A DNA stretch of 64,000 nt, taken from Microcaldota archaeon (GTDB lineage: Archaea > Micrarchaeota > Micrarchaeia > Micrarchaeales > Micrarchaeaceae). The stretch covers positions 1 to 64,000 of the forward strand of contig JAKARM010000003.1 in assembly GCA_021822165.1 (NCBI GenBank). The letters are read 5' to 3'. The first letter of the stretch is position 1. Each line of letters opens with the position of its first letter. The notes beneath the pieces were generated by a model that saw only the letters and a program-made list of their open reading frames with translations, did not search any database and was not told where the DNA came from. A program made the position numbers and the translations under genes. Shown piece by piece: positions 31,083 through 61,545 of this stretch.

Positions 31083-31100
31083 AGGATTGCAGGTGTTCTG

Positions 31101-31475
31101 ATTCCTGGCTACTTGATAATAGATACAAGCTCCCTCGTATTCGGATTCGCGAATGGCAAAAACATCATAGAGGCCGCCTTGCAGAGGTTTCCGAAGATGG
31201 AGCTCCTGGTATCGAGGTCCCTTATCGGCGAACTCGAAGGCATATCCACAAATAAGGGAAAGAGGGGGGATGCCGCGAGGTTGGCGCTTTTATCCATAAA
31301 AGCTAAAAAGGTTAAAGTGGATAATAAAAGAGGTAACGTTGACGATTGGGTGCTTGAAACCGCAGCCAACAACCGCGGGAGCATTGTCGTGACAAACGAT
31401 ACACAGCTCATCAGGAGGCTCGATGGGGCAGGCGTCAGGTCTTATAGGGCCAGGGAAAGCGGTACCATCGGATAA
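31101..31475 (+). CDS. PIN-domain nuclease
   Basis: A PIN-domain protein of about 124 residues. Acidic residues at the expected places are visible: Asp in LIIDTSSLVFG, Glu in SLIGELEG, Asp in VDDWVLETA and Asp in VVTNDTQL. PIN domains are metal-dependent RNases; without a paired antitoxin gene it more resembles Fcf1/Utp24-type or single-PIN archaeal proteins. No ATG fits. I place the start at ATT 31101 because GGTG lies exactly 5 nt upstream; TTG 31113 is the conventional alternative. It lies between DUF488 and Rpo7. Confidence 0.8.
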   Translation: MPGYLIIDTSSLVFGFANGKNIIEAALQRFPKMELLVSRSLIGELEGISTNKGKRGDAARLALLSIKAKKVKVDNKRGNVDDWVLETAANNRGSIVVTNDTQLIRRLDGAGVRSYRARESGTIG

Positions 31476-31498: not shown

Positions 31499-32092
31499 AT
31501 GTACTATATTTATACAGTAAGAGACACATTCAAGATGCCCCCTGACAAGTTCGGCGGGGATATCGTGGAGGTCGCTTCCGAGATGCTGCAGAAGAAATAC
31601 GAGGGATCCATAGACAAGGACATGGGTGTCATCGTATGCGTATTCAACGTCAGGGACATAGGGGATGGGAACATATACCCTGGAGACCCCTCCACACATC
31701 ATGATGCAGAATTCGACGTTGTGACCTATGCCCCGCATGTTGACGAGTTGGTCGTAGGGGATGTCACCGAACTTGCGGAATTCGGGGCATTCATGAGAAT
31801 CGGCCCTATGGACGGGCTCGTACATGTATCGCAGATAGCGAACGATTTCCTTTCGTTGGACAGGAAGATACCGGCATTTCTTTCGAAGAAAACCAGCCTT
31901 TCGCTCAAGAAGGGAGATATCGCCTATGCCAAGATATCCACCGTAAGCATGAAGAGCTCGGTGAAGGATTCGAAGATTGCCCTCACAATGAGGCCTACCG
32001 GGCTTGGTAAATCGGAATGGGCCGGGATCCAAGAACAAAGCCAGAGAGGAGGGAACATAAGAAGGCCGCAGAAAAAGCCGTCGAAAAAATAG
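31499..32092 (+). CDS. rpoE1: RNA polymerase subunit Rpo7 (RpoE')
   Basis: A 197-residue subunit with an N-terminal RNP-like domain (YIYTVRDTFKMPPDKFGGDI) and a C-terminal S1/OB domain (GDVTELAEFGAFMRIGPMDGLVHVSQI). With Rpo4 it forms the polymerase stalk that binds emerging RNA. It ends in a basic tail (RRPQKKPSKK). It is followed immediately by Spt4, the usual archaeal neighbour. Confidence 0.95.
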   Translation: MYYIYTVRDTFKMPPDKFGGDIVEVASEMLQKKYEGSIDKDMGVIVCVFNVRDIGDGNIYPGDPSTHHDAEFDVVTYAPHVDELVVGDVTELAEFGAFMRIGPMDGLVHVSQIANDFLSLDRKIPAFLSKKTSLSLKKGDIAYAKISTVSMKSSVKDSKIALTMRPTGLGKSEWAGIQEQSQRGGNIRRPQKKPSKK

Positions 32093-32103
32093 AAGGTGAT
32101 TGA

Positions 32104-32295
32104 ATAGATGAAAAGGTCTGCAAAAATTGTAGGATTATAATAAGTTATGGCGATAAGTGCCCGATATGCGAATCTACCGACCTGACGACAAAATGGAGCG
32201 GTTTCGTGATAGTGCTCAATGTCGACAAATCGGAGATAGCAAAGAGGCTCGGATTGAAAGTGAACAGCACATTCGCCCTCAATATAAAGGGTTAG
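32104..32295 (+). CDS. spt4: Transcription elongation factor Spt4 (RpoE''), ATA start (not in ORF track)
   Basis: A 63-residue zinc protein: CKNC and CPIC knuckles, then STDLTTKWSGFVIVLNVDKSEIAKRLG, matching archaeal Spt4 end to end. It pairs with Spt5 to keep RNA polymerase processive. A stop (TGA) immediately precedes ATA 32104 in frame, and the first in-frame GTG or TTG lies after both zinc knuckles, so no standard start can give a complete protein. GGTG lies exactly 5 nt before the ATA. It follows Rpo7 and overlaps the end of the convergent FKBP gene by 4 nt. Confidence 0.88.
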   Translation: MDEKVCKNCRIIISYGDKCPICESTDLTTKWSGFVIVLNVDKSEIAKRLGLKVNSTFALNIKG

Positions 32296-41540: not shown

Positions 41541-42572
41541 CTATGCCCCGCCGTGAATTACCGTTGTATTGCATCCGGCAGGCTGGGTCAGTTGATTGCT
41601 AAATGCAAGTTTCAAATATCCGATATAAGGAATCGTAGCGACGACCTGCCCCTGCACCTGGCTCATGTTGGGAGGGACATTAAGGAACTGCATGTCTAGC
41701 CCGGGGTTATTGTCCCCTTTTGTCAGGAAATAATAGCTCCCGGTTACGTTTATTATTGCATAGACCCTGTGCACTATATATGAGTCTCCTTCCCTATAAA
41801 ATAGATCCTGGGGTAAGGTATGATAGACGATTATGGAATTGTTCTGGTCTCCGGTGATGGTGGTATTCCCTATTGTTATCGACCTTATGTAAGCCTCTTC
41901 CGCTATTGTACCGTTTTGGAGCCTGACGCTTTGCTCCCCGCAAAGGTACCTTATCGGATTCGATGCTTGCGAGCCGTTGGAAATTATGCTGCCCCCGTCG
42001 ATCCCGGGACGATATAGGCCGATTGAGTAGCCTGGGGCTATGAACTGGTTGACGCTTATGCCGGAACCAGTTACCTTATATGCGACGCATTCCAACGACT
42101 CCAGGCTTGGATTTTGCAAGATAGCGGCCATGGCCGATTTGCTCATGTCGACCATAGGGGCATGTATGTCGCTGGCATTCGCCACCCCCTTTATGATTAT
42201 CATATCACCCCTCGAAAGGACAGGGAGCATGCTGCAGCTCGGCACGACATCAAGGGGATGGCTGGTGCCTAGCAGCGAAGTCAGAACCACCCATATGAAG
42301 GCTATGATTATGACGGTCGTGAATAATTCCATGATGCCTTTCTTGGTGCCCTGTTCTGCAAGGCTATTAAAAACCTCCAGGACGACGAGGGACCCCAGGG
42401 AGATGAGGATAGCCGCACCGAATAGCAGGGAAAGGGAGCCATTCCCCTGATAATGGATATAGAGTATGAAAAAGGCCGCAAGCAACAGGTATAGGGGCAA
42501 CGTAGATATCTGTTTTTTCTTCTTTGCCCTGCTGGACTTCGCCCGGGCATTTCTAGTAGTCTTGGTTTTGAT
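41541..42572 (-). CDS. Signal peptidase I, probable ATC start
   Basis: About 343 residues. A Lys-rich N-terminus is followed by two hydrophobic hairpin segments and a third helix, then the catalytic ectodomain. The serine motif is PSCSMLPVLSRGDMIII, the His motif IVHRVYAI and the Asp motif TKGDNNPGLD, as in ER/archaeal-type enzymes that use Ser-His-Asp instead of Ser-Lys. It removes signal peptides. The ORF track starts at TTG 42500, but 24 more in-frame codons (KTKTTRNARAKSSRAKKKKQ) extend to ATC 42572 just after the SMC stop. The only nearby ATG (42580) is in another frame. Start choice is inference. Confidence 0.85.
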   Translation of the reverse strand: MKTKTTRNARAKSSRAKKKKQISTLPLYLLLAAFFILYIHYQGNGSLSLLFGAAILISLGSLVVLEVFNSLAEQGTKKGIMELFTTVIIIAFIWVVLTSLLGTSHPLDVVPSCSMLPVLSRGDMIIIKGVANASDIHAPMVDMSKSAMAAILQNPSLESLECVAYKVTGSGISVNQFIAPGYSIGLYRPGIDGGSIISNGSQASNPIRYLCGEQSVRLQNGTIAEEAYIRSITIGNTTITGDQNNSIIVYHTLPQDLFYREGDSYIVHRVYAIINVTGSYYFLTKGDNNPGLDMQFLNVPPNMSQVQGQVVATIPYIGYLKLAFSNQLTQPAGCNTTVIHGGA

Positions 42573-58498: not shown

Positions 58499-58837
58499 TC
58501 ATATATGTTCCAGGAGCCCCGACTTCTTCAGTACGTCGGAATCCATCTTGCTGTACCTCCACACTATATCCCCCTTCTTGTCGCTCTGCACGACCCATGG
58601 CCGGACTATCACGAGATCGTCCATCTTTATCCAGAACATCCTCTTGTACTTCACAGGTATCGTGCACACGCGTTCGTTCCCGTCATTGCACCGGACTAGG
58701 AAGTTGGTTGCCCCTCCGGCCTTGGCTACAAGCCCGACCACCTCGCCCTTCGCCGGCATCCTGGTCCTGTGCTCGGCCCCTTCCGACTCGCCCCGGCGGG
58801 AATAGCCTCCCGGTTTTTTGCCCTTATACCACCCCAT
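58499..58837 (-). CDS. eif1A: Translation initiation factor aIF1A
   Basis: A 112-residue OB-fold factor from ATG 58837 (GGTG 5 nt upstream; the ORF track adds 14 residues from within the upstream gene). It matches aIF1A: GEVVGLVAKAGGATNFLVRCNDGNERVCTIPVKYKRMFWIKMDDLVIV. It promotes start-site selection on the 30S subunit. Placed 8 nt after the aIF2-beta gene, as part of an initiation-factor operon. Confidence 0.95.
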   Translation of the reverse strand: MGWYKGKKPGGYSRRGESEGAEHRTRMPAKGEVVGLVAKAGGATNFLVRCNDGNERVCTIPVKYKRMFWIKMDDLVIVRPWVVQSDKKGDIVWRYSKMDSDVLKKSGLLEHI

Positions 58838-58845
58838 TGACACAC

Positions 58846-59262
58846 CTAATAACTCTTGACCCCGTACCTTGCACCGCATGCCTCGCAGACGAATATGGAC
58901 ATGCCGCGTCCTGCCGCTTCGAGATGCGAATCCGGCTTATGGCACTCCTTGCAGATAACATAGACCTCGAAGAACCGCTTTATCCTGTGGTCTATTTCTG
59001 CATTCGTGAACCTGCCGTTGATTATGAACCTCTGGTCCTCGACGTCTATCGGCACGCCAAGCTCCCCGCTGAGGTACCTCGCTATTTCCTGCAGCTTCCT
59101 CCTCGCCTTGTCGGCTATGAGCGCCGCATTCCTAACCACTGTCTTGCTCCCTTGGATCAGAACGTCGGCCTCAGGTATCACGAAATCGGACTTTTCCGCA
59201 GACCTTTGGGGCATCTTTGAAAATGCCGCATCTAGAAGTTCATTATACTCATCGTCACTCAA
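58846..59262 (-). CDS. eif2b: Translation initiation factor aIF2 beta subunit
   Basis: About 138 residues. I favour TTG 59262 (protein begins SDDEYNELLDAAF) because GGTG lies 6 nt upstream; the ORF track uses GTG 59274. The alpha/beta core (KLQEIARYLSGELGVPIDVEDQRFIINGRFTNAEIDHRI) and the C-terminal zinc motif CKECHKPDSH...CEACGARY are typical. It is part of the factor that delivers initiator tRNA. With aIF1A it heads the minus-strand cluster down to Pop5. Confidence 0.94.
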   Translation of the reverse strand: MSDDEYNELLDAAFSKMPQRSAEKSDFVIPEADVLIQGSKTVVRNAALIADKARRKLQEIARYLSGELGVPIDVEDQRFIINGRFTNAEIDHRIKRFFEVYVICKECHKPDSHLEAAGRGMSIFVCEACGARYGVKSY

Positions 59263-60690: not shown

Positions 60691-61545
60691 CTAATTACTG
60701 GTCTGTTTTGGAGAGTCCTGCCGCAACATATACATCACGGAATCGGGGATATCGGATACATCAAGGTAGCGAACCCTGCTCTTGTACATCGCATAATAAC
60801 CAAGGACCATGTCGGCATAATTGCCGGATGGGGACTTCTCCCTGAAATTGATTGCCTGAATCACGGCACCCGGGCCTGCATTGTAAGATGCGAGCGCGAG
60901 GCGGACCTGTTCGGCGGCAGGATACTGCTTATACATGTCCAGGAGGAGCGCCAGGTAATGTGTCCCTCCCATTATATTTTGCCTGGGGTTTGTCAGGTCT
61001 GTTATTCCGATGCCTTCCGACTTGGCGGTTTCCGGCTCCAACTGCATCAACCCCACCGCGCCCCTGTTGGATATCACGTTAGGATTGCCATGGGATTCTA
61101 TCGAGATGACAGATCTGATCAGGTTCGCAAAGTCCGACTGGCCCATCCCGCTCAACCCGGAATACCTCCGGGATGCCTCTATGATGATGGGATCGTAATT
61201 CAGGACTGCCCTCATCGTGTTGGTGATATTCCCCTCCTTCACGAATACTGCGGAATTCTCCCCGGCAGAATAATCGAACTTGAACGAAGATATTGGGCTG
61301 CCGGCGAAGGGCAGCGGGTTATAATCCACCTGCCTTGGCAGGGATTTAACGCTTGCGGTAACTTCGGCCATTTGAGGGTTTGTGCTTGTCGCGTGCGCCA
61401 ACGCCAGGAAGCCCACAAGCAGTACAGGGGTACGGGTCGCTACATTCTGCAGCCATGTCCTATGGTGCTTCGCCCTGTTGGAAGAAGTAGCTGACTGGAC
61501 TTTTTGGATTTCGACCTGTTTGGCCTTGCGCTTTTCTACGTTGAT
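60691..61545 (-). CDS. SLT-domain (lytic transglycosylase-like) exported protein, probable ATC start
   Basis: About 284 residues. The SLT/lysozyme-like domain shows SVISIESHGNPNVIS with the catalytic Glu, then GAVGLMQLEPETA, NIMGGTHYLALLLDMY and LALASYNAGPGAV, in the right order. Such enzymes cut peptidoglycan, which archaea lack. The ORF track starts at GTG 61416 in the middle of the hydrophobic segment. Reading back gives a basic N-terminus and full signal helix (PVLLVGFLALAHA) from ATC 61545, with GGTG exactly 5 nt upstream. Action on bacterial walls, a viral relic, or another glycan substrate are all possible. Confidence 0.8.
   Translation of the reverse strand: MNVEKRKAKQVEIQKVQSATSSNRAKHHRTWLQNVATRTPVLLVGFLALAHATSTNPQMAEVTASVKSLPRQVDYNPLPFAGSPISSFKFDYSAGENSAVFVKEGNITNTMRAVLNYDPIIIEASRRYSGLSGMGQSDFANLIRSVISIESHGNPNVISNRGAVGLMQLEPETAKSEGIGITDLTNPRQNIMGGTHYLALLLDMYKQYPAAEQVRLALASYNAGPGAVIQAINFREKSPSGNYADMVLGYYAMYKSRVRYLDVSDIPDSVMYMLRQDSPKQTSN

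Follow-up and report, generated by a model that had tools for sequence, protein, structure and literature searches.

AUA as the probable start codon of spt4 in a Micrarchaeota genome with recurrent putative near-cognate starts

The spt4 locus and its homologues

The window, that is, the whole stretch of 64,000 nucleotides analysed here, comes from a genome (G000; 784 kb, 37 contigs, 89% complete) whose genus is represented by one genome and whose nearest named relatives are Micrarchaeota metagenome-assembled genomes (MAGs). Near the middle of the window, a short gene encoding the transcription elongation factor Spt4 follows rpo7, with the following features:

31499–32092, + strand: rpo7 (RpoE1; PF03876 and PF00575), the 5′ neighbour, ending 11 nt before spt4
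32095–32098, + strand: GGTG Shine-Dalgarno (SD) core, exactly 5 nt before the spt4 ATA
32101–32103, + strand: in-frame TGA, abutting the spt4 ATA
32104–32106, + strand: ATA, the putative spt4 start codon, aligned with ATG in 33 of 33 homologues
32104–32295, + strand: spt4 (RpoE2 zinc-ribbon elongation factor), 63 codons read from ATA; PF06093, E 1.3e-11; 33 homologues align
32108–32110, + strand: out-of-frame ATG opening 10 codons, a rival start only if a base is missing in the A-run

The preliminary description had read a complete archaeal Spt4 here, and the profile search agreed: the product is full-length, matching positions 1–76 of the 77 in PF06093 with a score over the cut-off, and its translation contains both halves of the zinc ribbon (CKNC and CPIC), which are kept in relatives. 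The frame closes at TAG (32293–32295), and a search of the G000 genome for a second Spt4 found none, leaving 32104–32295 as the sole copy. The 5′ frame reads ...GGT GAT TGA ATA GAT GAA AAG GTC TGC AAA AAT TGT..., with the TGA directly upstream as described, and the first in-frame GTG downstream lies at about 32206, past both CxxC knuckles; a start at ATG, GTG or TTG is thus impossible without loss of both knuckles. The 5-nt interval between GGTG and ATA, previously called usual, is indeed the commonest SD-ATG spacing in G000 (5 nt, n=32; 6 nt, n=20).

An ATG is aligned exactly with the spt4 ATA in all 33 other Micrarchaeota homologues compared (loci L002–L034), and the layout is matched in L032, where GGTGAATGA is followed by ATG. 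A standard start codon in relatives had been set beforehand as evidence against AUA initiation. The ATG is there, and its retention in every compared relative counts against our preferred reading, yet it fixes the position of the start rather than an error in the G000 base, because about 20–50% of Spt4 residues differ between G000 and these relatives (best identity, 81%). The same alignments bear on the possibility that an A is missing from the run at 32111–32114, or that programmed −1 slippage occurs, so that a start at ATG 32108 (giving MKKVCKNC) is hidden. Although this ATG is only one base out of frame and the short form MEKVC occurs in order-level relatives, it stands 9 nt from the SD, off the 5–6 nt mode, and the Asp-Glu-Lys of the ATA frame matches the Glu-Glu-Lys of same-family homologues (compare IDEKVCKNC with the MEEKVCKNC of the nearest relative), which argues against a start at 32108 and makes this explanation very unlikely. 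Gene decay, in which the start codon has been lost relative to all relatives and the protein is no longer made, is likewise highly unlikely: the frame is intact, both zinc knuckles and the SD are kept, no other Spt4 was found in the genome, and the differences from the nearest relative are distributed 7/5/30 over codon positions 1/2/3, indicating that the gene is maintained under purifying selection.

Putative near-cognate starts in G000 and related genomes

The start scan took in the window and further G000 stretches, 383 kb in all with 326 putative genes, or roughly half of the genome. In these 383 kb, at least seven genes in which a standard start is impossible carry AUA, AUC, AUU (together, AUH) or ACG 5 nt after a GGTG-type SD. 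In addition to spt4, the firm set comprises the first six features below; the last is a candidate that was set aside.

G000 contig C13 (L087): rpl29, ATA start, without a possible standard start
60691–61545, − strand: SLT transglycosylase-domain protein (PF01464, E 2.4e-23), ATC start at 61545 after GGTGATACT
41541–42572, − strand: membrane protein, resembling a signal peptidase by eye, ATC start at 42572 after a weaker SD (GATGATCCT)
G000: OGG-like glycosylase, ACG start, aligned with ATG in G007
G000: adenosine-specific kinase (PF04008), ATC start
G000, L138: membrane protein, ATT start
31101–31475, + strand: PIN-domain gene (PF18477, E 1e-9), possible ATT start at 31101, GGTG at 31092–31095

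The earliest standard start codon in the SLT protein is its codon 44, and that in the membrane protein at 41541–42572, for which a Pfam search returned no match, is a TTG at the first transmembrane helix. In this archaeon, the SLT protein carries a membrane segment at its N-terminus; homologues sought in 40 relatives yielded one partial match only, which does not inform the start position, and the gene was possibly acquired. The PIN-domain gene was rejected as a firm case because TTG 31113 is an alternative start and its homologues start with TTG, ATG or CTG near ATT 31101, leaving it ambiguous. An epimerase, the G000 rnhB, a C39-like gene and two candidates in L134 each have an alternative standard start and were placed outside the seven.

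At an SD spacing of 5 nt, G000 shows ATG 32 times, ATA 4, ATC 4, ATT 3 and ACG 2, and the 54 other codons total 23. The 13 AUH/ACG codons compare with 1.7 expected from the other codons, a 7- to 8-fold excess (Poisson, 3e-8; this and the following P values serve as guides, as no independent set of starts was used to calibrate the scan). They account for about one-third of the non-standard codons at this spacing versus less than one-tenth at control spacings (Fisher, 1.3e-4), and relative to ATG they are commoner in G000 than in the rest of the family (Fisher, 3.5e-4), where the excess at this spacing was absent (5 observed versus 3.6 expected), a point against our preferred reading.

Judged from the alignments, rnhB (RNase HII; PF01351 match) appears to hold the cleanest near-cognate start common to relatives. 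Its aligned start codon in 30 family genomes is ATA in 18, ATT in 4, ATC in 1 and ATG in 7; nearly half of these genomes (14, of which 13 have ATA and 1 has ATC, in seven genera) lack an in-frame standard start within 30 codons. A stop codon lies directly 5′ of the rnhB ATA in G010, G033, G017, G101 and G071, and a start further downstream would delete the DEAGRG motif. Among the rnhB loci (L285–L314), a PRC-barrel-like gene precedes rnhB in G000 and G021. Other near-cognate examples are ACG starts of DAHP synthase in G017 and of a prefoldin-like gene in G007, and an apparent ACG start after GGTG in a nuoK-like gene of the f2 genome G039 (L152, 969–1277).

The preliminary description had offered genuine AUA initiation and assembly error side by side. 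A consensus error in the MAG, or a strain polymorphism, would make the true base at 32106 a G and start spt4 with ATG, in line with the ATG of all 33 relatives and with the fragmented, incomplete state of the assembly. However, several independent errors would be required, each striking a start codon that sits 5 nt beyond an SD, in at least seven genes, along with similar errors in the rnhB of 14 other assemblies, and we consider this improbable. Genuine initiation is favoured because AUH/ACG codons recur 5 nt after an SD genome-wide and because rnhB begins with AUA or AUC in seven genera. The remaining alternative is that AUA means methionine throughout the organism, as in animal mitochondria, and would therefore be a cognate start codon. 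AUA is the commonest AUH start in relatives, but where ATA occurs internally, relatives have Ile (RIIIS in Spt4), a UAU-anticodon tRNA-Ile is predicted, and AUC, AUU and ACG are also used, making such a reassignment extremely improbable.

Initiator tRNA, initiation factors and the rpl29-aIF1 arrangement

Inspection of the initiator tRNA and of aIF1, aIF1A and aIF2, proposed in the preliminary description, gave an ordinary tRNA and substituted factors. The G000 initiator tRNA has A1-U72 and anticodon CAU, and the mismatch would therefore have to be tolerated in the P site. For AUA, the genome has a tRNA-Ile predicted to carry an intron and the anticodon UAU (L078, contig C36), in place of the usual modified CAU form. 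Two of the factor genes adjoin within the window:

58499–58837, − strand: aIF1A (PF01176, E 4.3e-16), its IPG motif reading IPV
58846–59262, − strand: aIF2-beta (PF01873, E 3e-27), TTG start with GGTG 5 nt upstream

The glycine of the aIF1A IPG motif, present in 23 of 23 relatives, is valine in G000, and aIF2-beta has glycine where lysine occupies the position in all 23. Around the basic loop of aIF1, G000 carries Ser, Val and Ile where relatives mostly have Tyr, Thr and Glu. Substitutions unique to G000 are not clearly more numerous than those elsewhere (in aIF1A, three in G014, three in G043 and one in G000), and such sequence differences are suggested here as leads, being correlations only. 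Work cited in PMC6237735 reports that Saccharolobus aIF1 selects against non-canonical start codons, and yeast initiates more often at non-AUG codons when t6A is lost (PMC4717488). In G000, aIF1 is followed by TsaD/Kae1, a t6A gene, and by a gene for a Bud32-like kinase; with rpl29 (AUA) in front, these genes form an operon-like group linked to start-codon fidelity (L087, 272–2426). Kae1 is close to aIF1 in several but not all family genomes, and this proximity was not seen in the f2 loci.

At the corresponding codon of rpl29, 73 of the 75 family genomes have AUH; the sister family mostly has ATG. To call AUH its start in all 73 would be over-strong, as a GTG inside GGTG lies in frame three codons upstream in 62 genomes and class-level homologues begin with ATG there. 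In ten genomes from seven genera, no standard start occurs in frame within 30 codons; one of these firm cases (G084) has TGA immediately before the ATA. In most genomes of the family, rpl29 ends within or right next to the ATG of aIF1. A weak start on rpl29 could, in this arrangement, adjust aIF1 output as AUU does for IF3, an idea weakened by the alternative GTG start (62 of 75). A broader scenario, in which the family (f1) normally uses AUA, AUC, AUU and ACG (fixed in rnhB and rpl29), has an infC-like feedback on aIF1 through translational coupling to the rpl29 AUH start, and has gone further in G000 through changes in aIF1, aIF1A and aIF2-beta, is tentative and rather doubtful.

Interpretation and comparison with known systems

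Taken from sequence evidence, spt4 is most probably translated from AUA 32104 by genuine near-cognate initiation with Met-tRNAi, under start-codon selection that is relaxed in this lineage. The GGTG SD would place the 30S subunit at the AUA, and Met-tRNAi (CAU) would be accepted in the P site despite the third-position mismatch, giving a predicted N-terminus of Met-Asp-Glu-Lys-Val-Cys. The spt4 AUA would then be one member of the G000 near-cognate set (AUA, AUC, AUU, ACG), reflecting less stringent discrimination between start codons in this Micrarchaeota family, perhaps most marked in G000. Output would probably be lower than with an AUG start; a lower level may be suitable for Spt4 or simply tolerated. 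We infer, rather than observe, the use of AUA in cells, the insertion of methionine and the contribution of the aIF1, aIF1A and aIF2-beta changes.

The preliminary description covered one gene, and the wider near-cognate pattern is new. Archaeal genome annotation presumes AUG, GUG or UUG starts. If AUH/ACG starts are natural here, gene finders restricted to these three codons would overlook or shorten genes such as spt4, rpl29 and rnhB, and the lineage would offer a natural setting in which to study how aIF1, aIF1A and aIF2 control start stringency without scanning. In the literature searched, with incomplete coverage, AUA starts have not been described for Micrarchaeota. AUH starts are already known in bacteria; their recurrent use across archaeal genera would be new.

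The closest bacterial counterpart is infC, the IF3 gene, which starts with AUU in E. coli, where this codon tunes IF3, and with AUC in Streptomyces; another non-AUG case is sigR, with a GUC start (PMC5472188). The likeness lies in an AUH start with an SD and in start-codon strength tied to an initiation-fidelity factor. However, infC and sigR are single bacterial genes, with feedback proven for IF3, whereas many unrelated genes are involved in this archaeon, and spt4, unlike infC, encodes no initiation factor; infC-type feedback does not apply to it. Within archaea, for which a review of initiation lists only AUG, GUG and UUG (PMC7531240), GUG and UUG starts similarly involve SD-led placement of Met-tRNAi on a mismatched codon; their mismatch is at codon position 1, whereas that of AUA, AUC and AUU is at position 3 and that of ACG at position 2. 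Near-cognate initiation in yeast is comparable in that relaxed stringency, involving homologous factors, admits near-cognate codons, but it concerns scanning eukaryotic systems and mutants (PMC4717488), whereas the initiation proposed here would be SD-led and is apparently natural.
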